Shown in pieces: positions 15,878-54,209 of a DNA stretch of 64,000 nt. The stretch covers positions 105,916-169,915 of the forward strand of contig NZ_JAGEMK010000008.1 in NCBI RefSeq assembly GCF_017565425.1, read 5' to 3'. The position numbers and the translations under genes are program-made. How positions within the stretch are numbered: the stretch's first letter is position 1; each line of letters starts with the position of its first letter. This DNA is from Actinotalea soli. GTDB lineage: Bacteria > Actinomycetota > Actinomycetes > Actinomycetales > Cellulomonadaceae. The notes under the pieces are model-generated. The model worked only from the letters and a program-made list of their open reading frames with translations, had not been told where the DNA came from and did not search any database.

Positions 15878-15973
15878 GGTGTGTCCTCCTCGTGGTGGCA
15901 GGAGGGGGGCCCAGCACCAGCGTCGTCGACCGGCAGCACCCGTCGACGACGACGGTGGCAGGCCTGAGACGTC

Positions 15974-16076
15974 CCGACTCCCTACGCCGGTACCAACCGG
16001 ATCAGGTTCGAGGGTCTGCGGATGTCCGCACTCTCAGCGTCCAGCGTCCGGCGAACCGGACGACGCTCCCCTGTCG
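15974..16076 (-). promoter_or_regulatory. TPP riboswitch (THI element)
   Basis: Read on the minus strand, the conserved blocks appear in order: ACAGGGGAGC, then GCTGAGAGTGCGG, CCGCAGACCCTC, GAACCTGATCCGGTTGGTACC and GGCGTAGGGAGTCGGG. These are the P2-P5 elements and the CUGAGA pyrimidine-binding loop of the TPP aptamer. The start codon of thiB lies ~96 nt downstream; the expression platform could act at the Shine-Dalgarno or by termination and was not resolved. Confidence 0.95.
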
Positions 16077-16202
16077 TTCACCCCGAGCCTACCGCCGCGA
16101 CGCCGGTGCCCCGGCCGCCGTGGTGCCACGGACCACGCCGCGTCCGCGGCTACGCTCGGGGCGGGCAGGGCCCGACCTGCAACATCCGACCGAGGAGGAG
16201 CC

Positions 16203-45204: not shown

Positions 45205-45837
45205 TCACACGACCCGGGCGACGTCCTCGAAGTCGAGGCGGGCCTGGCGGTCGCGGGTCGCGGGCGTCGAGAAGCCCTCGTGGTCGGCCGGGGCAGCGCC
45301 GACGTTGAGCACCATGATCGAGCGCCAGGGCGAGCCGGCGAAGAGGTCGGCGTCGACCCCGGGGGCGTCGAAGCCGGTCATCGGCCCGACGTGCAGTCCC
45401 GCGGCGCGCAGGCCGACGACGAGGTAGCCGGCCTGGAGGAAGGTGTTGTCCCGCGAGGTCGCGGTGCGGGAGTCGGGGGCGTCGGCGAGCTGGTCGCGCA
45501 GGGCAGCCAGGTGCGGTGCGAGCCGCGGCAGGTGCTCGTGGAAGTCCAGGTCCGCCGCGAGCACGATGCTCAGCGGCGCACGGAGGGTCTTGGCCGCGTT
45601 GCTCCCGCTCATGTGGGAGGCGAGCCGCTCGCGGGCCTCGGTCGACCGCACCAGGAGCATGCGCATCGGCAGCGAGTTGAAGGCCGTCGGCCCCCACCGC
45701 ACCAGCTCCCACACCTCGCGCACCTGCTCGTCGGAGACGTCCTCGTCGCTGAAGGTGTTGACGGTGCGGGCCTCGCGGAACACGAGGTCGAGGACCTCGT
45801 CCGAGACCACGGCGGACTGGCTCGTGTCGATGCTCAT
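45205..45837 (-). CDS. Nitroreductase family protein (RutE/HadB-like)
   Basis: A 210-residue FMN oxidoreductase of the malonic semialdehyde reductase subgroup. REARTVNTFSDEDVSDEQVR and VRWGPTAFNSLPMRMLLV bind FMN, then QAGYLVVGLRAAGLHVGPMTG and a C-terminal ADLFAGSPWRSIMVLNVG. It overlaps the preceding flavoprotein gene by 4 bp. In this operon it may supply reduced flavin or reduce an aldehyde product; RutE activity itself is not implied. Confidence 0.88.
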   Translation of the reverse strand: MSIDTSQSAVVSDEVLDLVFREARTVNTFSDEDVSDEQVREVWELVRWGPTAFNSLPMRMLLVRSTEARERLASHMSGSNAAKTLRAPLSIVLAADLDFHEHLPRLAPHLAALRDQLADAPDSRTATSRDNTFLQAGYLVVGLRAAGLHVGPMTGFDAPGVDADLFAGSPWRSIMVLNVGAAPADHEGFSTPATRDRQARLDFEDVARVV

Positions 45838-47081
45838 GACCGTTGCAACACCGCGGGGGCTGCCGTGTTCCCCGTCGTCACGGAGTCCGCCTCACCTCCG
45901 ACGGGCTGCACCCCGATGCTCCACACCGTGGGCGGCGCCGCGCCGTTGACGGCCCAGTCCCCCACCACACGCGCCTTGTAGATGGCCGGGTTGTGGGTCG
46001 CGACCGTGCGGGCGTTGCGCCAGTGCCGGTCCAGGGCCTTGGTGGTGCTGGTCGCGGATGCCCCCAGCCCGTCGAAGATCGCCGTCGCCGCCCGAGGCAC
46101 CGAGGCGCTGAGGACGACCTGCCCCTGGGCCGTGGCGAGCTCTGCCCCCTCGCTCGTGGCCCGCTGCTCCTCGAGCCCTGCCCCCCGGCTCGCGTAGGCG
46201 GCCTCGAGGGACCCCGCGACGTGCTGCACCAGGGCCTCGGCCGCGAAGCTGGTCGCCTCGATCTCCCCGACCACCTGGAGCACCTGGGGGTCCTGACGCA
46301 CCCGGGGCCCGTTGCCGTGGCCGAAGGTCCGGGTCCGTGCCCGCACCTCGTCGGCTGCGTCCCGCGCCGCCGCCCGAGCGATGCCGGCCAAGGTGATGAG
46401 GTGCACGTGCTGGTAGAGGGCCGTCTGGTACGGGAACCGCCCGGCGAAGGGGAAGACGGCGTCCGGCTCGACGGGCGCCTGGTCGAAGACCGTCGTCCCG
46501 CTGCCGGTCAGACGCTGGCCGAAGCCGTCCCAGTCGTCGGTGGTGGTCACGCCGTCCGCCCCGGCCGCGACGATCAGCGCGAGGTCCGTGCCGTCGGCCC
46601 CGCGCGCGGTGACGTCTATCCAGTCGGCGTAGATCGACCCCGTCGTGTAGTACTTGCGCCCGGTGACCGTCAGCCCTGCCGGGCCGTCGTCGAGGGTGGT
46701 CGAGACGCCGCCGGCCCCGGGCTCGGTCCACGCGTTGCCCGCGATCTGCCCCGCGACGAACCGTGAGATCCACCGGCTGCGGTCCTGGCCCGGGTGGTGG
46801 AAGAGCTGGTCCTCGACCAGGGCGATGTGCCCGCGCAGGGCCTGGAGGATGTTGCTGTCCGCCGCAGCCAGGTCGACCAGCAGCCGGCTGTACTCGGGCC
46901 AGGTCAGGCCGTCGCCTCCCAGCTCGACCGGGATGCGAGCAGCGCCGAACCCGGCCTCCCGCAACCAGCCGATCTGCTCGTGGGGCAGGGCCCGGGTGCG
47001 CTCGGCCTCCACGGCTCGCTCGGCGATCTTGTCCAGGATCGGCCGGTACGTCGCTGCGGCGGCCTCGTAGGTGGTGGTCAT
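45834..47081 (-). CDS. DszC/SfnB-like flavin monooxygenase (acyl-CoA dehydrogenase fold) 1
   Basis: A 415-residue protein with the three-domain acyl-CoA dehydrogenase fold: an N-terminal helical domain (IGWLREAGFGAARIPVELGG), a beta domain with GNAWTEPGAGGVSTTL and GRKYYTTGSIYADW, and a C-terminal helical domain ending ALDRHWRNARTVATHNPAIY. It lacks the catalytic Glu context of true acyl-CoA dehydrogenases and matches the DszC/SfnB group, FMNH2-dependent monooxygenases of sulfur heterocycles and sulfones. GGAAGGA precedes the ATG. Confidence 0.85.
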   Translation of the reverse strand: MTTTYEAAAATYRPILDKIAERAVEAERTRALPHEQIGWLREAGFGAARIPVELGGDGLTWPEYSRLLVDLAAADSNILQALRGHIALVEDQLFHHPGQDRSRWISRFVAGQIAGNAWTEPGAGGVSTTLDDGPAGLTVTGRKYYTTGSIYADWIDVTARGADGTDLALIVAAGADGVTTTDDWDGFGQRLTGSGTTVFDQAPVEPDAVFPFAGRFPYQTALYQHVHLITLAGIARAAARDAADEVRARTRTFGHGNGPRVRQDPQVLQVVGEIEATSFAAEALVQHVAGSLEAAYASRGAGLEEQRATSEGAELATAQGQVVLSASVPRAATAIFDGLGASATSTTKALDRHWRNARTVATHNPAIYKARVVGDWAVNGAAPPTVWSIGVQPVGGEADSVTTGNTAAPAVLQRS

Positions 47082-47110
47082 GGCAGGTCCTTCCAGGGTG
47101 AGGGGCGCGG

Positions 47111-48028
47111 TCACTTCACGGCCCCGGCGGTGAGCCCCTCGACGAGGCGGCGCTGCAGGGTCAGGGCGATCACCAGCACGGGGAGGATGCCGACCATCGC
47201 GGCGGCGGCGATCTTCCCGTACTCGGCGACCCGTTCCCCGAGCAGCAGGGACAGGTGCACGGGCAGGGTCTGGGAGGCGGCGTCCTGGGTGAGGAAGCTC
47301 GCGAGGAGGAACTCGCTGTAGCCGAGCAGGGTGACGATCAGCCCGACGGCGACCAGCGAGGGCCCGGCCAGGGGAAGCACGATCGAGGTCAGCACCCGCA
47401 GCGGGCCCGCGCCGTCGAGCTGTGCGGCCTCGTCGATCTCCCCGGGGATCCGGTGCAGGAAGGCCTGCAGCAGCCACACCGCGACCGGCAGGTTCACCAG
47501 CCCGTACACCAGGGTCAGGCCGAGCAGGCTGTTGGTCAGCCCGAGGATGCGCAGCAGGGTCAGCAGCGGCACGACCGCGACGATGGGCGGCAGCAGCCAC
47601 GGGCTCATCACCGTCGCGAGCAGGGTGCGCCCGCCGGTGCCCCGACGCGACAGGGCCCATGCCCCCGGCAGCGCGAGGGCCAGGGACAGCAGCGCCCCGC
47701 CCACGGCGGCGAGCACCGAGTTGAGCACGGCCTGGGTCAGGGTGGTGCCGACCACCGCGTCGCCCCAGTTCGACCACCGCAGGTCGCTCGGCACGAGCAC
47801 CCCCGCGACCAGCTCGTTGCGCCCCATGAGGGACACCGAGAACAGGTAGAGCAGGGGCACGACGGCGAGCACCACCCCCAGGACCACCACGACGGGGGCC
47901 AGCAGCCGCGGACGACGGCGCCGCGCTCCGGTCCGCAGCACCGGTCGCGTCCGGACCGGGGGGCCGACGGCGGGGCGCGCGAGGACCGGGGGCGCCGGGG
48001 CCGGGCGCGTGGAGAGGGTGCTGGTCAT
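47111..48028 (-). CDS. ABC importer permease, MalG type
   Basis: A 305-residue CUT1-type permease. After a ~45-residue Pro/Arg-rich N-terminus come six helices. The coupling loop is IPGEIDEAAQLDGAGPLRVL, the EAA motif of carbohydrate-type permeases. It overlaps the MalF-type gene by 4 bp and lies 29 nt before the flavoprotein gene. No ATPase gene is in the operon. Confidence 0.88.
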   Translation of the reverse strand: MTSTLSTRPAPAPPVLARPAVGPPVRTRPVLRTGARRRRPRLLAPVVVVLGVVLAVVPLLYLFSVSLMGRNELVAGVLVPSDLRWSNWGDAVVGTTLTQAVLNSVLAAVGGALLSLALALPGAWALSRRGTGGRTLLATVMSPWLLPPIVAVVPLLTLLRILGLTNSLLGLTLVYGLVNLPVAVWLLQAFLHRIPGEIDEAAQLDGAGPLRVLTSIVLPLAGPSLVAVGLIVTLLGYSEFLLASFLTQDAASQTLPVHLSLLLGERVAEYGKIAAAAMVGILPVLVIALTLQRRLVEGLTAGAVK

Positions 48029-48981
48029 CGTTCGACCTTTCGGGTCAGGAGGGCCACCGGCACGGTCACGACCGTCACCACGACGGCGAGCAGCAGCGTG
48101 ATCACCGCGGCACGGTCGAGGTCGAACTGCTGCAGGGCCGCCTGGTGGATCAGGTAGGAGGGCACCGTGGTGGACTGGCCCGGCCCGCCGGCGGTCATGA
48201 CCGCGACCAGGTCGTAGACCTTGAAGGCCAGCACCAGCCGGACGAAGAAGGCCGCGAGCACGACCCCCGCGACCGAGGGCAGCACCACGTGCCGGACCAG
48301 GCGCAGACCGTGCGCGCCGTCGAGGGCGGCGGCCTCGAGGACCTCGCGGTCCAGGCCGAGCAGCCCCGCGTAGACCAGGAGCATCACCAGCGGGGTCCAC
48401 TGCCAGGTGTCGGCGATCGCGACCCCCAGCAGGGCAAGCCCCGGGGAGGACAGCACCGCGACGGCCTGCCCCTCGTAGCCCACGGCCCCCAGCAGGGTCG
48501 CGAGCAGCCCACCCGCAGGGTTGAACACGAGCCGCCACACGATGGCCACGACGACCGGTGGGGTCATCAGCGGCAGCAGGAGCAGCCCGCGCGCGAGCCC
48601 TCCCCCACGCCGCAGGCCTGACAGCGCGAGGGCCAGCACCACCCCGAGCACCGTGCTCAGGGCCGCGACCCCCACCGCGTACCCCGCTCCGCGGGCCAGC
48701 GCGTCGGTCACGTCGCTGCTCGCGACGACCTCCCGCGCGCTGGCCAGCCCGGCCCACTCCTGGAAGGGGTTGCCGAGGGTGGACTCGGTGAGGGAGGCCC
48801 CCACGATGAACACCAGCGGGTAGGCCCCGAGCACCAGGACGGTGAGGATCAGCGGGCTGACCATCAGCCGGTGCTGCCAGGTCTGGGCGCGGCGGCGCGG
48901 TCGTGGCACGCGCTGCCCGGCGGGGACCGGCCCGGAGACCGCCGGGCCGGCCGCCGGGCCGGTCGCCAGGTCAGTCGCCAA
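48025..48981 (-). CDS. ABC importer permease, MalF type
   Basis: A 318-residue CUT1-type permease with six helices. The EAA loop is LDREVLEAAALDGAHGLRLV, and TAGGPGQSTTVPSYLIHQAAL is the conserved periplasmic/last-helix block. The TTG at 48981 overlaps the binding-protein gene by 11 bp and has GGGAG 10 nt upstream; GTG 48906 is the alternative. It pairs with the MalG-type subunit. Confidence 0.88.
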   Translation of the reverse strand: MATDLATGPAAGPAVSGPVPAGQRVPRPRRRAQTWQHRLMVSPLILTVLVLGAYPLVFIVGASLTESTLGNPFQEWAGLASAREVVASSDVTDALARGAGYAVGVAALSTVLGVVLALALSGLRRGGGLARGLLLLPLMTPPVVVAIVWRLVFNPAGGLLATLLGAVGYEGQAVAVLSSPGLALLGVAIADTWQWTPLVMLLVYAGLLGLDREVLEAAALDGAHGLRLVRHVVLPSVAGVVLAAFFVRLVLAFKVYDLVAVMTAGGPGQSTTVPSYLIHQAALQQFDLDRAAVITLLLAVVVTVVTVPVALLTRKVER

Positions 48982-50371
48982 GGGTTCGCTCCCACTCGGC
49001 CTGGACCCGCTCCATCGTCTCCTGCGCGGTGCCGCCCTGGCCGGCGAGCAGCTTGGCGAGCTCGTCGGTGAGGATCTGGGCCAGCTGTGCCGCGTGCTCC
49101 CCGGTGGGCCAGGCCAGGCTGTCGGTCAGGGTCGCGCGGTTGGCCTCCTGCAGCTCGGGGAAGGCCGTGCCGTAGGACTCGCTCTCCAGGGAGGAGATGC
49201 GGTTGGGGTCGATGCCCGTGGGCGGCTCGGCCGTCAGCAGGGCCTCGTTGACCTCGGAGGAGGCCGCCCAGGCGATGAAGTCCTGCGCGAGCTCCGTCTC
49301 CTCGGTGTTGGCCGTGACGGTCCAGGTGAAGCCGGCGACCAGCGAGGCGCGTGACTCGGTCGCATCCCCGCCCACGGGCAGGGTGGTCACACCCCAGCCG
49401 TCCGCGACCGTCGAGCCGGACTCGGCGCTCTGGGAGACGACGCCGAGGTCGGTCCAGTTCTCGATGAAGGCCACCGAGCCGTCGAGCCAGGCGCTGTTGC
49501 CCTCGCCGAAGGCCGTCTCCCCCGGCGTCGGGAAGGCGTGCGGCCAGATGTCGACCAGGGCCTGCGCGGCGGCGACGGCCTCGGGGGTGTCGACCGACGG
49601 GGCGCCGCTCTCGTCGAGGAAGGAGCCGCCGTACCCGGCGAGCCGGTTGGCGTAGCTCGCCCCGAGGATCAGCGGGGACTTCTGCCCGAAGACCGCCGCG
49701 CCGTAGACGCCGTCCCCGGACTCGTTCTCGGTGATGGTCTCGACCTGATCGAGGTACTCGTCCCAGGTGGCCGGCGGGGCGTCGAAGCCGTTCCGGGACA
49801 GGATCTCGGTGTTGTAGAAGAGCACGTGGGTGTCCCCGTCGAAGGGCAGCCCGTACCGGCGGTCGCCCACCTGCGTGTACGCGTCGTAGATCGAGGGGAT
49901 GAAGTCCTCGGTGTCGAGCTCGGGGGTCTCCTCGATCCAGTCGGTGAGGTCCTGGATGACGCCGTCGGCCGCGAGGTCGCCGATCGAGACGTACCAGGGT
50001 GCCGCGACGTCGATCGTGTTGGCCCCCGACTGCTGGTCGAGGGTGAGCTTCGCGGCGATCTCGTCGTAGGGGACGATCACCGGGTTGATGCGGACGCCGG
50101 TCTCCTCCTCGTAGGTCTCGGCCAACCACTCCGAGGCCCCCTCGTGCGAGGAGATGAGCAGGACGGTGAGCTCCTCGCCGCCGGCGGCGTCCGCGGCCCC
50201 TGCCGCGCAGGCTCCCAGCGGGAGGGTCACGGCCAGGGCGGCGAGGGCGCCGACGGTCGAGCGCCGGCCGGGCAGGCTGGTGGGCCGCCGGGTGAGGAGG
50301 GTGGTGGGCTTGTGGGCGGCTGACTTGTGGGCGGCTGACGTGTGGGCGGTGGGCTTGCGGGTGGCAGTCAT
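48971..50371 (-). CDS. ABC substrate-binding lipoprotein, MalE type
   Basis: A 466-residue family-1 solute-binding protein. A long basic N-terminus with His/Ala/Thr repeats precedes the hydrophobic segment and the lipobox LPLGAC (about residue 55). The mature part starts ELTVLLISSHEGASEWLAET and includes APWYVSIGDLAADGVIQDLT, GLPFDGDTHVLFYNTEIL and the hinge GWGVTTLPVGGD. AGGAAGA lies 6 nt before ATG 50371; GTG 50425 overlaps the previous stop and is possible. The context suggests import of a sulfur compound, although this family usually binds sugars. Confidence 0.87.
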   Translation of the reverse strand: MTATRKPTAHTSAAHKSAAHKPTTLLTRRPTSLPGRRSTVGALAALAVTLPLGACAAGAADAAGGEELTVLLISSHEGASEWLAETYEEETGVRINPVIVPYDEIAAKLTLDQQSGANTIDVAAPWYVSIGDLAADGVIQDLTDWIEETPELDTEDFIPSIYDAYTQVGDRRYGLPFDGDTHVLFYNTEILSRNGFDAPPATWDEYLDQVETITENESGDGVYGAAVFGQKSPLILGASYANRLAGYGGSFLDESGAPSVDTPEAVAAAQALVDIWPHAFPTPGETAFGEGNSAWLDGSVAFIENWTDLGVVSQSAESGSTVADGWGVTTLPVGGDATESRASLVAGFTWTVTANTEETELAQDFIAWAASSEVNEALLTAEPPTGIDPNRISSLESESYGTAFPELQEANRATLTDSLAWPTGEHAAQLAQILTDELAKLLAGQGGTAQETMERVQAEWERTLGD

Positions 50372-50421
50372 GGTCGTCTTCCTGGTGGGTTCGGGGTGAG
50401 GGTGCGGCGCGGGGCCGGCAC

Positions 50422-51648
50422 TCACGTGTAGAGCGAGATGGGCTGGACCTGGCCGAGCAGGAAGTGCGCTCCGACCTCGAGCTTCTTGTAGTCGACCGGG
50501 TCGTGGAGGGAGTGGGTGCGCACGTTGCGCCAGAAGAGGTCCAGGCCCACCCCGCTGCGGGCCGAGCTCGAGCCGGTCACCTCGTAGATGCGGTTCGCGA
50601 CGTCGACCCCGACCTCGGTCGAGACGACCTTGAGCCCGGCGACCTTGATCGCGAGCGCGGCCCGCTGCTCGGCCGTGACCTGCCCGCCGAGCCCGAGGAC
50701 GGCGTCGAACTCGGCGTTCAGGACGTCGGCGAGGGCCTCGACCGCTGCCGTCCGGGCCACGAGCTCGCCCACGGTGCGCTGGACGAGGTGGTCCTCGGCG
50801 TAGGTGGGTGCAGCGGAGAGGAACCAGGAGCGCGGGCGGGCCAGGACCAGCTCGCGACCGCGGGCCAGCGCCCCCTGGGCCACACCGAGGTAGAAGTTCC
50901 CGAAGGCCAGCTGGATGGCCGGGGTGACGAGGGTGGAGAAGGCATCCTCGTCCTCGATCTCACCGAGCACGTCGGCGGGGTCCACGCGCACGTCGTGGTA
51001 GCGCACCGACCCGCTGGCCGAGAGGCGCTGACCGAGGAAGTCCCAGTCGTCGAGGAGCTCGAGCCCCTCCCGCTCGCGCTCGACGACGAAGGCCAGCACG
51101 GCGCCGTCCTGGTCGCCGCCGCGCACGGTCGCGTTGATGATGATGACGTCACCGACCGAGGAGCCGGTCGAGAACCGCTTGAGCCCGTTGAGGCGGTAGC
51201 CGTCGCCGTCGGGGGTGAGCTCGAGGGTCGGGTCGACGGGGTTGACCGAGTCCCCCCAGACCCACTGCCCCTCGGCCGAGCGTCGCCACCACGGGCCCTG
51301 GTCGGCGGGCTCGGCGTAGAAGACGATCGTCGCCTGGTTGATGTAGTGGTAGGCGAGGAGCTGGGCGATGGACCCGTCGGTGCGGGCCAGGATGCGCACC
51401 GCCTCGAAGGCGGTCTGCCAGTGGGCTCCCGCGCCGCCGTGCTCGGCGGGGACCAGCAGGTTGACCAGCCCGGTGCCGCGCAGGTGCTCGAGCTCGGCGA
51501 AGGGCTGCTCGTTGGCGCGGTCCCGCTCCCAGGCGTCGGCGCCGAGGTGCTCGGCCGCGGCCTGGGCGACGGCGCGCCAGTGGTCCAGCTCGGTGGCGTC
51601 GGCCGCGCCGTGCCAGGGGGAACGCTCGACGACTGCGTGCTCGGTCAT
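50422..51648 (-). CDS. DszC/SfnB-like flavin monooxygenase (acyl-CoA dehydrogenase fold) 2
   Basis: A 408-residue homologue of the gene at 45834. Key blocks are GTGLVNLLVPAEHGGAGAHW, a beta domain with WGDSVNPVDPTLELT and GLKRFSTGSSVGDVIIINAT, and a C-terminal GLDLFWRNVRTHSLHDPVDY, the DszC-type ending. It needs reduced flavin from a reductase. It overlaps the LLM gene by 4 bp. Two members in one operon may attack different substrates or successive steps. Confidence 0.87.
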   Translation of the reverse strand: MTEHAVVERSPWHGAADATELDHWRAVAQAAAEHLGADAWERDRANEQPFAELEHLRGTGLVNLLVPAEHGGAGAHWQTAFEAVRILARTDGSIAQLLAYHYINQATIVFYAEPADQGPWWRRSAEGQWVWGDSVNPVDPTLELTPDGDGYRLNGLKRFSTGSSVGDVIIINATVRGGDQDGAVLAFVVEREREGLELLDDWDFLGQRLSASGSVRYHDVRVDPADVLGEIEDEDAFSTLVTPAIQLAFGNFYLGVAQGALARGRELVLARPRSWFLSAAPTYAEDHLVQRTVGELVARTAAVEALADVLNAEFDAVLGLGGQVTAEQRAALAIKVAGLKVVSTEVGVDVANRIYEVTGSSSARSGVGLDLFWRNVRTHSLHDPVDYKKLEVGAHFLLGQVQPISLYT

Positions 51649-53075
51649 ACCGTCTCCTTGGTCCGTGCCGGGACGACCTGCTCGTCCGCGGCGCTCAGCT
51701 GGCCGGCGTAGGCACCGCGGTACGCGGCGGCCGGGTGGGTGTCGGCGACGTGGTGGTGGCCCGCGCCGTAGAGGTACTCACGGAGGGTCGAGCCCTCGTA
51801 CTCGCGCCACACGCGCCCGCGTCGCTGCAGCTCGGGGACGACGAGGTCGACGAACTCCTCGAAGGAGCCCGGGGTGATGGCGTACGCGAGGTTGATGCCG
51901 TCCAGGCCCGCGTCGTCGATCCACCGCTCGATCTCGTCCGCGACGGTGGTGGGGCTGCCCACCAGCACGGGCCCGATGCCACCCACCCCGACGTGCTGGG
52001 CGATGTCCAGCGGGGTCCACTCGCGGGTCGGGTCGGCCTTGGTGAAGATCGACAGGGCGGAGCGGGCCGCGTCGGTGTCCACGTACTTGAGGGGCTGCTC
52101 GGGGTCGAAGGAGGCCAGGTCCAGGCCGGACCACCCGCCGTAGAGGGCCAGGGCCCCCTCGGCGCTGCTGTAGGACCGGTACTCGGCGAGCTTGCGCTCG
52201 GCCGCCGCGTCGGAGTCCGCGACGATCGCCGTGAGCAGGGCGTAGATCTTGACCGAGTCCCGGCTGCGGCCGTGGCGCTCGGCGCGGTCACGGATGTCGT
52301 CGGTGGTGAGCCGGGTGAGGTCCGGACGCAGGGCGTTGATGAAGACCCCTTCACCGTGCTGCCCCGCGAAGTCCCGGCCGCGCGGCGAGGCGCCGGCCTG
52401 GAAGATCACCGGGGAGCGCTGGGGCGAGGGCTCGGACAGGTGGATGCCGGGCACCCGGAAGTGCTGGCCCTCGTGGCGGATGGGATGCACCTTGGTGGGG
52501 TCGGTGTAGATGCCCCGGGCCCGGTCCTTGACCACGGCGCCGTCCTCCCAGGAGCCCTCCCAGAGCTTGTAGGTGACGTCGAGGAACTCGTCGGCGAGGT
52601 CGTACCTGTCGTCGTGGCGGATCTGCCGGTCCAGGCCCAGGTTGCGGGCGGCGCTGTCGAGGTAGGAGGTCACGACGTTCCACCCGATGCGCCCGCCGGT
52701 CAGGTGGTCGAGGGTCGAGAGCTTGCGGGCGAAGGAGTACGGCTGCTCGTAGGTCAGGGCCGCGGTGACGGCGAAGCCGAGGTGCTCGGTGACCGCAGCC
52801 ATGGCCGGGACCTGGAGGAACGGGTCGTTGAGCGGGATCTGAGCCCCGTCGATCAGGGCGGGGGCCGAGGAGTTGCGGTAGACGTCGTACACGCCCAGCA
52901 CGTCGGCGATGAACAGGGCGTCGAACCGTCCGCGCTCGAGGGTCCGGGCCAGGTCGGTCCAGTACTCGAGGGTGTTGTACGTGTCGGCCCGGTTGTCGGG
53001 GTGGCGCCACAGGCCGGGGCTCTGGTGGGTGGGCGTGGTCATGTCGAAGGCGTTGAGGCTGATGCGCTTGGGCAT
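51645..53075 (-). CDS. NtaA/SnaA/DszA-type flavin monooxygenase
   Basis: A 476-residue two-component monooxygenase of the NtaA/SnaA/DszA family. MPKRISLNAFDMTTPTHQSP is the family opening. Then RGRFDALFIADVLGVYDVY, TGGRIGWNVVTSYLDSAARN, a long NtaA-type insertion with KVHPIRHEGQHFRVPG, QAGASPRGRDFAGQHGEGVF and GPVLVGSPTTVADEIERWID. The family oxidises sulfones, aminocarboxylates and related compounds with reduced FMN. AGGAGC is 6 nt before ATG 53075. First enzyme gene of the operon, 308 nt downstream of a Cys-rich leader ORF. Confidence 0.9.
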   Translation of the reverse strand: MPKRISLNAFDMTTPTHQSPGLWRHPDNRADTYNTLEYWTDLARTLERGRFDALFIADVLGVYDVYRNSSAPALIDGAQIPLNDPFLQVPAMAAVTEHLGFAVTAALTYEQPYSFARKLSTLDHLTGGRIGWNVVTSYLDSAARNLGLDRQIRHDDRYDLADEFLDVTYKLWEGSWEDGAVVKDRARGIYTDPTKVHPIRHEGQHFRVPGIHLSEPSPQRSPVIFQAGASPRGRDFAGQHGEGVFINALRPDLTRLTTDDIRDRAERHGRSRDSVKIYALLTAIVADSDAAAERKLAEYRSYSSAEGALALYGGWSGLDLASFDPEQPLKYVDTDAARSALSIFTKADPTREWTPLDIAQHVGVGGIGPVLVGSPTTVADEIERWIDDAGLDGINLAYAITPGSFEEFVDLVVPELQRRGRVWREYEGSTLREYLYGAGHHHVADTHPAAAYRGAYAGQLSAADEQVVPARTKETV

Positions 53076-53372
53076 GGTGCTCCTGCGGGAGGACGGCCGG
53101 GTGGCCGTGGCTGGCGGGACGGCGCGGGGCCGCGGGACGGGACGGCAGCGCACCCGGACGCACCGACCGCGCCGGAGGTGGTCCGGGCAGGGCTGGTGCG
53201 CACGGGACGGCGGGTGCCGGGGTGCGGGTCGACGACCTCGGGCCGTGAGGGCGGGAGGTGTCAGGGGCCGACGACGGAGGTCGGCTGGTCGCCGCTGCGC
53301 GATCGACGCGTCAGGGCGCGGAGCGTTCCGGGACTGGCTCGGTGGAGCGACTCAGCGGGTGAGCGGCTCGGG

Positions 53373-53399
53373 GGTGGTGCTGGTCAGTGACAGCACACC
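53373..53399 (-). promoter_or_regulatory. Hairpin across the Cys codons of the leader ORF
   Basis: On the minus strand GGTGTGCTG pairs with CAGCACCACC, with one bulge and an 8-nt loop. The left arm contains the tandem Cys codons TGC TGT. A ribosome stalled there would open this hairpin, the basic logic of an attenuator. Downstream alternative stems could not be resolved by eye. Confidence 0.45.
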
Positions 53400-53422
53400 G
53401 AGGTCAGACCCGGCATGCACAT
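53384..53422 (-). CDS. Leader peptide with paired cysteines
   Basis: A 12-codon ORF encoding MCMPGLTSVCCH. It contains three Cys in twelve residues, two adjacent and next to the end. Short leaderless ORFs with C-terminal Cys runs are known in mycobacteria as cysteine-responsive attenuators upstream of sulfur genes. TACGCG (53424-53429) is an imperfect -10 if translation begins at the second ATG (53416). It ends ~308 nt before the DszA-type gene. The ORF is too short for coding statistics, so position and composition are the support. Confidence 0.5.
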   Translation of the reverse strand: MCMPGLTSVCCH

Positions 53423-53544
53423 TCGCGTACCGGCGACGTCGCGCGGTGCGTTGTGCTCTCGGTTCTGCCCCATGACGCCGACGATGACAGGCGTCCCTGC
53501 ATGTGGGAAGACGCGTTCCACCTGGTGGACATCACGGGTGCTGC

Positions 53545-54081
53545 TCAGCGGTACCGCAGCACCCATCGGGCTCGGTCCGCACGGCAGCGACGGTGCACGC
53601 GCACCACGGGCCGCCCGTCCCGGTCGACGTTCACACCGTCCCGCACCAGCACCGGGTCACCGGTGGGGATCTGCAGCAGGCCGGCGTCCTCGGGGCAGGC
53701 CTGCGCGGCCGAGAAGGAGCGCCAGCCGTACTCGAGGCCCAGGTCGGCCCCCGCGGCCATGGCCCCCACCAGCGTCTGGCCCCGCTCCCACCCCTCGGCG
53801 AGGTCGGGGAAGTCGCGGTCCACGACCCAGTAGGTGCTGACCACCCAGGGTTCGTCGCCGATCTCGATCAGCGTCTCCAGGCGCCGCAGCCGAGCACGGG
53901 GCCGCTGGAGATCACGGCGGACCACCGGGGAGTCCTCGATCGAGGTGCCCAGGAGCCGCTCGATGTAGCTCCGGCCGCGCAGGGCCGCGGAGCGGGCGAG
54001 GATCTCGTCCACCGCGTCGACCCTGCCCTGGTCGAGCTCGACGTCCACGGGCCGACCCGTCGCATCGATGACCCCTCGCAC
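53545..54081 (-). CDS. Stand-alone UTRA domain protein
   Basis: A 178-residue protein with a UTRA (chorismate-lyase-like) ligand-binding fold: SYIERLLGTSIEDSPVVRRD, RLRRLETLIEIGDEPWVVST and the C-terminal IPTGDPVLVRDGVNVDRDGR with CRADRARWVLRY. UTRA normally follows a GntR winged-helix domain, which is absent here, so it cannot bind DNA in the usual way. The start at GTG 54081 has TACAGT 7 nt upstream; ORF starts at 54159 and 54192 would add a low-complexity basic tail. It lies 122 nt upstream of the Cys leader ORF. It may sense a ligand or be a true lyase. Confidence 0.6.
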   Translation of the reverse strand: MRGVIDATGRPVDVELDQGRVDAVDEILARSAALRGRSYIERLLGTSIEDSPVVRRDLQRPRARLRRLETLIEIGDEPWVVSTYWVVDRDFPDLAEGWERGQTLVGAMAAGADLGLEYGWRSFSAAQACPEDAGLLQIPTGDPVLVRDGVNVDRDGRPVVRVHRRCRADRARWVLRYR

Positions 54082-54209
54082 CTTGTCGACTGTAGGTCGG
54101 CCCCGCCCGCCCGACGCGTCCCGGCGGGGCTGTGCGCCGAGTAGCCTCCCAACCGTCATCCCCTGGCCACCCCACGGTCGCCTGCCGCTCACCCAGAACC
54201 GAGGAGCAC

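Follow-up and report, generated by a model that had tools for sequence, protein, structure and literature searches.

Upstream of an organosulfur-type monooxygenase operon of Actinotalea soli lies an open reading frame of 29 codons, MGQNREHNAPRDVAGTRMCMPGLTSVCCH, and we consider it likely that it is translated as a leaderless leader peptide and attenuates the operon by sensing the charging of tRNA-Cys and, probably, also of tRNA-Met. It was found in the window, i.e., the whole stretch of 64,000 nucleotides that was analyzed. Its relatives are kept throughout the genus in front of sulfur-scavenging genes, and the initial annotation, which had recognized a Cys-rich, probably leaderless upstream ORF ahead of such an operon, was right in this respect. 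The features of the locus are given in the direction of transcription:

53504..53520, reverse strand: imperfect inverted repeat TGGAAC-N5-TTCCCA over the -35-like element, a candidate operator
53504..53509, reverse strand: -35-like TTCCCA (TTNNNN upstream of CANNNT)
53481..53486, reverse strand: -10-like CATCGT (CANNNT at -12 or -13), 7 nt before the ATG
53384..53473, reverse strand: leader ORF, 29 codons, ATG at 53473, stop at 53386-53384
53414..53425, reverse strand: core CGA-ATG-TGC-ATG (Arg17-Met18-Cys19-Met20)
53390..53395, reverse strand: terminal TGC-TGT Cys pair, codons 27-28
53076..53383, reverse strand: C-rich untranslated region (UTR) of 308 nt between the leader stop and the monooxygenase ATG
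51645..53075, reverse strand: LLM flavin monooxygenase, NtaA/DmoA subfamily (TIGR03860, 544 bits with a cut-off of 280; PF00296)
50422..51648, reverse strand: DszC/SfnB-like flavin monooxygenase (best model NF043015, below cut-off; PF08028)
48971..50425, reverse strand: ABC solute-binding protein, MalE type (PF01547)
48025..48981, reverse strand: ABC permease (PF00528)
47111..48757, reverse strand: frame with an ABC permease in its C-terminal half, start uncertain (PF00528, residues 368-538)
45834..47777, reverse strand: SfnB-like monooxygenase from about residue 240, start uncertain (TIGR04022 below cut-off; PF08028)

The downstream genes thus bear out the organosulfur monooxygenase operon that had been proposed, with an LLM enzyme, DszC/SfnB-like enzymes, a MalE-type binding protein and two permeases. 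Since the matches to the DszC and SfnB models remained below their cut-offs, organosulfur compounds are a putative substrate of the operon. Its first gene is preceded by an AGGAG and starts at the ATG at 53075, and the encoded monooxygenase is 100% identical to one of Actinotalea sp. C106.

The initial annotation had described a shorter, 12-codon ORF with a Cys pair, MCMPGLTSVCCH, encoded by ATG TGC ATG CCG GGT CTG ACC TCG GTG TGC TGT CAC TGA at 53422-53384 on the reverse strand. This sequence is present at the place named and has a single exact match across the 3.63-Mb genome; GTNTGYTGYCAYTGA occurs once in the window, as compared with a mean of 0.00 in 100 shuffles. Its boundary, however, was misplaced. 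The 12 codons are codons 18-29 of the longer ORF, the frame of which stays open in 5' direction as far as the ATG at 53473, and comparison of 19 leaders points to this ATG as the start: it lies 48 nt before the core in 18 leaders and 45 nt before it in the remaining one. On the same comparison we rejected the formerly assumed start at codon 18 together with its suspected -10, which falls within the 29-codon ORF. Our choice of start is based on the spacing between ATG and core and on a promoter-like match, as a few leaders have additional in-frame ATGs upstream.

Upstream of the leader ATG, the arrangement TTCCCA-N17-CATCGT-N7-ATG fits the predicted leaderless transcript. The corresponding promoter-like pair, CANNNT at -12 or -13 combined with TTNNNN at a distance of 16-19 nt on its 5' side, is present before 18 of the 19 leaders, where this distance is 16-18 nt. 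Of 1374 control ATGs located elsewhere in these stretches, 4 have such a pair. For CANNNT alone at -12 or -13, the figures are 18/19 and 21/1374, respectively. A generic sigma-70 scan returned no match.

The 19 leaders, that of the window included, originate from 16 genomes: 13 of the genus, two of genus g6 and one of g4. They are mutually related, and counts over them are therefore not independent. Fifteen precede an ssuE FMN reductase gene, with 223-498 nt between leader and ssuE, and two, in G000 and G005, precede an operon of the window type; the latter are near-identical in sequence and identical in their peptides. The other two are located before a gene with acyl-CoA-dehydrogenase-type domains (G011, contig C7) and at a contig edge (G013). 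Genes of sulfur metabolism, encoding SsuE, LLM and DszC/SfnB-like proteins, are accordingly found downstream of the leaders. The genome of the window carries two leaders, the second of which is located before ssuE on contig C26.

Several searches contributed to this set. A DNA search in 59 relatives gave four convincing matches among many of chance level, and their peptides revealed a common element with different genes downstream. With a pattern of the core, seven hits in six genomes were obtained among the 19 genomes of the genus (reversed control: none), while in 200 genomes of the family the seven hits were all within the genus (reversed control: six); this pattern misses the g6 and g4 leaders, which use different codons. 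A stricter core pattern matched only the window's genome among 396 genomes of the order, a sample holding one further genome of the genus. With ssuE as probe in 91 family genomes, eight close homologues of 75-85% identity were identified, and each of them is preceded by a leader, with 319-528 nt from the first in-frame ATG of the leader to ssuE; the family search found an ssuE match in 19 genomes, and 11 remoter ones (42-49% identity) lay outside the leader scan. Within the 19 genomes of the genus, all searched for ssuE at E <= 1e-30, 13 carry both ssuE and leader, and neither was found in the other six, where the patterns may miss diverged leaders and two-mismatch hits were partly fetched. 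Adjacency of leader and ssuE was measured in 12 of these 13 genomes, the two being on separate contigs in G013. At E <= 1e-55, ssuE was detected in G000 and G007 only among 297 genomes of the order. The two SsuE proteins tested score above the equivalog cut-off (206 and 203 versus 164 bits). Four of the 19 leaders were compared with the NCBIfam leader-peptide models, with no family matching at E up to 10.

What the leaders have in common is located in their interior. In the protein alignment (18 rows, two dsz leaders being identical) M1, M18 and C19 are invariant, and D12 and R17 nearly so. All leaders but one contain CGA-ATG-TGC (18 of 19); G428 instead reads GGC-ATG-GCG-ATG-TGC, with a 6-nt insertion, the ATG-TGC in frame and four Cys. 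The terminal Cys pair, which had been taken as the key feature, did not prove to be one: a pair ends 8 of the 19 leaders, a single terminal Cys seven, and four have none, two of these with one Cys overall. Cys and Met are nevertheless abundant throughout, with 47 and 40 of the 539 residues in the 19 leaders versus 1 and 8 of the 1682 residues in four proteins of the window operon.

The use of codons is likewise peculiar. CGA encodes Arg17 in 17 of 17 aligned leaders, while a single one of the 156 Arg codons of 14 ssuE genes is CGA. In four genes of the window the count is 6 of 102, and for the operon found there the codon cannot be called extremely rare. At position 16, GCA represents 10 of 13 Ala codons, compared with 8 of 472 in ssuE. 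Insertions and deletions preserve the frame: G011_C7 has lost one codon, G428 has gained 6 nt, and the gaps before the terminal Cys codons measure 3 nt. Stops are absent from frame 0, sixteen in number in frame 1 and absent from frame 2, which is thus as open as frame 0. The pairwise mismatch by codon position is 0.27/0.28/0.23 in leader codons 2-20 and 0.17/0.15/0.38 in ssuE (both the mismatch counts and the codon table cover 17 of the 19 leaders, G011_C7 and G428 being left out, and 14 ssuE genes). The flat mismatch over the codon positions outside the core, like the open frame 2, speaks against a simple coding role. The amino-acid sequence is thus not maintained over most of the peptide, a nucleotide-level element is conceivable, and the targets of selection seem to be the core codons and the integrity of the frame. 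CGA is a slowly decoded codon; because it is rare in ssuE and conserved in the leader, it may serve as a ribosome brake.

From these features we infer a course of events in which transcription would begin at or next to the ATG and the ribosome would initiate at once. When Cys and Met are plentiful, it would pass the slow CGA and the Met-Cys-Met codons and be released at the stop, whereby about 300 nt of C-rich untranslated RNA would become exposed to Rho and most transcripts would be terminated prematurely. Under shortage of Cys-tRNA, the ribosome would stall at codon 19 or at codons 27-28, close to the stop. By shielding the beginning of the UTR or by keeping RNA polymerase coupled, it would then allow expression of the monooxygenase and transport genes. 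Leader control of the TnaC type is Rho-dependent. Common to both would be a ribosome held near the leader stop that shields the adjacent Rho-entry region, whereas the signal here would be uncharged tRNA and there it is the nascent peptide together with free tryptophan. The tna operon is named by Seliverstov et al. (PMC1262725).

The composition of the UTR is suggestive in this regard and compatible with a Rho-entry region. C exceeds G in all 17 UTRs measured, as compared with 12 of 19 control stretches taken at 60-260 nt upstream of the start. For UTR measures based on a gene start, 17 of the 19 leaders were used, G011_C7 and G013 lacking one. Terminator-like sites were searched in window positions 52900-53700, and none was found. 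The 19 downstream stretches contain at most four T per any eight nt, and a classical attenuator of the trp type, with terminator hairpin and U-tract after the leader, is thus not present. The hairpin into which the Cys codons had been placed does appear in the minimum-free-energy fold, but it is not conserved, as RNAalifold on 17 leader-UTRs yielded no more than -3.5 kcal/mol; on the basis of this alignment, a conserved hairpin or antiterminator was rejected. The 201-nt stretch at the leader of the window has a fold z-score of -3.1; single-sequence z-scores range from -4.7 to +2.7 across loci and were set aside as evidence. An Rfam scan of the window gave no cis-regulatory family at the leader and only tRNA and TPP hits, both far off; the TPP riboswitch is located at 15962-16082 on the reverse strand (63.5 bits). 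In eight leader loci scanned with Rfam at E <= 0.1, the single match was to an miRNA (35.5 bits versus a gathering threshold of 100) and was taken as chance.

The main rival to Rho-dependent termination accepts the same leader and lets it act on translation of the first gene. Stalling would remodel the RNA and free the ribosome-binding site of the monooxygenase, as reported for the poly-Cys leaders of Mycobacterium smegmatis, a case that is termed translational attenuation in papers citing it. In agreement with this idea, a clear AGGAG precedes the first gene of the window, and sites of the AAGGA or AGGAG type are found before most ssuE starts. A pairing of leader and ribosome-binding site is, however, not conserved in the RNAalifold result cited above, and the length of the UTR varies between 223 and 498 nt. 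Translational control seems rather unlikely to us, and we favor termination by Rho within the C-rich UTR.

Orthologous operons showed a different arrangement. Among 221 genomes of the family, 10 homologues of the window monooxygenase with at least 67% identity were found, its own copy counted, and 16 of 30 homologue loci were scanned upstream for leaders. No leader of the 29-codon type was found within 1500 nt upstream of the eight other orthologues (67-68% identity). The refuting condition named in the initial annotation, Cys codons not conserved in close relatives that retain the operon, hence gives a divided answer. The leader is not conserved with the operon in these eight cases, but it is conserved with the ssuE operon, including that in the window's genome. 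Moreover, in five of the eight orthologous operons a SAM-IV riboswitch is followed by a shorter leader that contains the CGA-ATG pair. SAM-IV (Rfam RF00634) heads seven of the eight, with scores of 84.6-95 bits versus a gathering threshold of 38 (L176-L178, L182, L209-L211), and the contig of the eighth, G009, ends too soon. It is located directly upstream in G464, G430, G011 and G023 and about 3.1 kb upstream of the monooxygenase in G012, G007 and G003; in G012 it precedes an ABC transporter with an ATPase whose best match is MetN (below cut-off) and an NlpA-family lipoprotein. Neither the window nor the eight leader loci tested contain a SAM-IV riboswitch.

Five of the seven SAM-IV loci, all except those of G464 and G430, show such a mini-leader, GTG-CGA-ATG-(T/C)GC behind a purine-rich Shine-Dalgarno sequence (SD), the GTG following the aptamer after 10-14 nt. 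The peptides are VRMCCCRH (twice), VRMCSCLDHTA, VRMRSCRD and VRMRCCHP, and thus the codon after CGA-ATG encodes Arg and not Cys in two of the five. In single folds of the five loci the SD is partly to mostly paired, and no common pairing was seen. SAM-IV and mini-leader together head the following transporter/monooxygenase operons:

L209, 6673-6820: SAM-IV with mini-leader
L210, 3237-3384, reverse strand: SAM-IV with mini-leader
L211, 6901-7058: SAM-IV with mini-leader
L213, 2037-2187: SAM-IV with mini-leader
L214, 1996-2142: SAM-IV with mini-leader

With due reserve we suggest that CGA-Met-Cys may be an exchangeable stall cassette of Actinotalea-like bacteria with two mounts, either a leaderless promoter or a SAM-IV riboswitch that would gate a SD, the tandem then being a possible two-input device. 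In the tandem, SAM would decide on translation of the leader and Cys-tRNA on stalling within it, such that scavenging would open only when methionine-derived and cysteine-derived sulfur are both low. The CGA would be the built-in brake that times the ribosome.

Further loci deserve mention. A supposed leader ending in GRQPSPVAGCPR before the orthologous monooxygenase of Rothia/Kocuria was dropped, as it overlaps the SAM-IV aptamer in eight loci. Eight Rothia/Kocuria-type orthologues have SAM-IV upstream (L038, L042, L043, L046, L052, L055, L057, L062; eight Rothia/Kocuria loci among 20 scanned), and in seven of them a standard SAM riboswitch is located on the opposite strand. Outside the 19 leaders, G426 (genus g2) contains a leader-like ORF, MTPDSLALTASRRSGLRAALARRMCPCPCC (L186, 1260-1352), with CGA-ATG-TGT and the ending ARRMCPCPCC. 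Between the start of this ORF and the LLM homologue that follows it (52% identity) are 241 nt.

The core might also be read as a DNA or RNA element of 9-12 nt, an operator or a small hairpin with a GAAU loop, to which the surrounding ORF is incidental. In favor of this reading, all 17 aligned leaders agree in every codon position of CGA-ATG-TGC while the codon-position pattern is flat elsewhere, and an inverted repeat GCAC-GAAT-GTGC spans the core in 10 of 17. Yet the arms of this palindrome are unequally conserved, the left one varying (GCA, GCG, ACG, GGG, CCG) and the right one fixed, and an operator function was rejected on this ground. Moreover, indels keep the frame, Cys and Met are strongly enriched, the same codons recur after a SD-spaced GTG in the mini-leaders, and the one leader without CGA retains its in-frame ATG-TGC next to a 6-nt insertion and with four Cys. 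Taken together, this makes an incidental ORF improbable.

The inverted repeat over the -35 is a candidate operator of some sulfur regulator. TGGRAC-N5-TTCCCA is found exactly in 6 of 19 promoters, in four of these six as TGGGAC-N5-TTCCCA. Just upstream of the leader promoter and on the same strand (53545-54192, reverse) is a gene for a UTRA-domain, PhnF-like (GntR-like) regulator; no DNA-binding domain was detected by Pfam in the frame scanned. That a regulator on this repeat controls initiation only, with the ORF as a passive result of the leaderless start, would accord with the exact copies, the near-matches in other promoters and the adjacent GntR-like gene, but it leaves the Arg-Met-Cys core, the Cys/Met enrichment and the mini-leaders after the riboswitch unexplained and seems a poor prospect.

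Attenuation by a leader peptide also suits what can be predicted of sulfur physiology in the genus. A search for PAPS/APS reductase (PF01507) gave no match in 16 of the 19 genomes of the genus, that of the window included, while all 14 control genomes were positive; among the 13 leader-bearing genomes of the genus, only G015 has it. The genus is thus probably largely devoid of assimilatory sulfate reduction by the common route, which would make a sulfur-amino-acid switch on organosulfur scavenging plausible.

Poly-Cys leaderless short ORFs of mycobacteria, which provide the experimental precedent, were reportedly described by Canestrari et al. in 2020. In the sections dealing with them, several papers present these ORFs as cysteine-responsive attenuators (PMC13236596, PMC9094748, PMC9031893, PMC4633059). 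Shared with the leaders studied here is a leaderless, Cys-rich upstream ORF before sulfur genes, the start being predicted from sequence in our case. In contrast, our leaders have a constant internal CGA-ATG-TGC core where the mycobacterial ones have a terminal Cys run, and the genes downstream are ssuE and those of predicted organosulfur scavenging. Seliverstov et al. (2005) reported Cys leaders in Mycobacterium and Propionibacterium acnes, where they precede cys operons, and in Bifidobacterium longum, where cbs follows (PMC1262725). According to the pertinent part of that paper, these have Cys codons near the stop and lack a terminator hairpin, and the authors proposed Rho; the genes are different, and an Arg-Met-Cys core is not described in that part (PMC1262725).

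Of the single leaders that we encountered in the literature, metL of Streptomyces lividans TK24 comes closest. It reads MSTTSDRTPATEATTTPGARCMCRRMCAF, precedes metNIQ and was reported as a methionine leader (PMC8079986). In the portion of the paper devoted to it, metL has 29 residues, is reported to be leaderless, is without a typical terminator and is located before a sulfur amino-acid importer; it ends in a Cys/Met cluster, CMCRRMCAF, which holds Arg-Met-Cys. Compared at the peptide level, the sequence is otherwise dissimilar, and a tandem with SAM-IV is not described in that portion (PMC8079986). In an open-licence literature collection, in which subscription papers are sparsely represented, we found no description of a family with an Arg-Met-Cys core, of the link to ssuE, or of a tandem of SAM-IV and Cys leader. 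Cysteine-leader attenuation is already known; what seems new, at least to us, is the core with its two architectures, and likewise the tandem with SAM-IV.

If our interpretation is correct, cysteine-leader control would extend beyond cysteine metabolism and include organosulfur scavenging by environmental actinobacteria, and the switching of predicted desulfonation genes could be explained at the RNA level. The conserved CGA next to the presumed sensing codons is an unusual design feature. The tandem of riboswitch and leader would constitute a compact two-signal gate, and orthologous operons would be able to exchange a SAM-IV sensor for a leader sensor.
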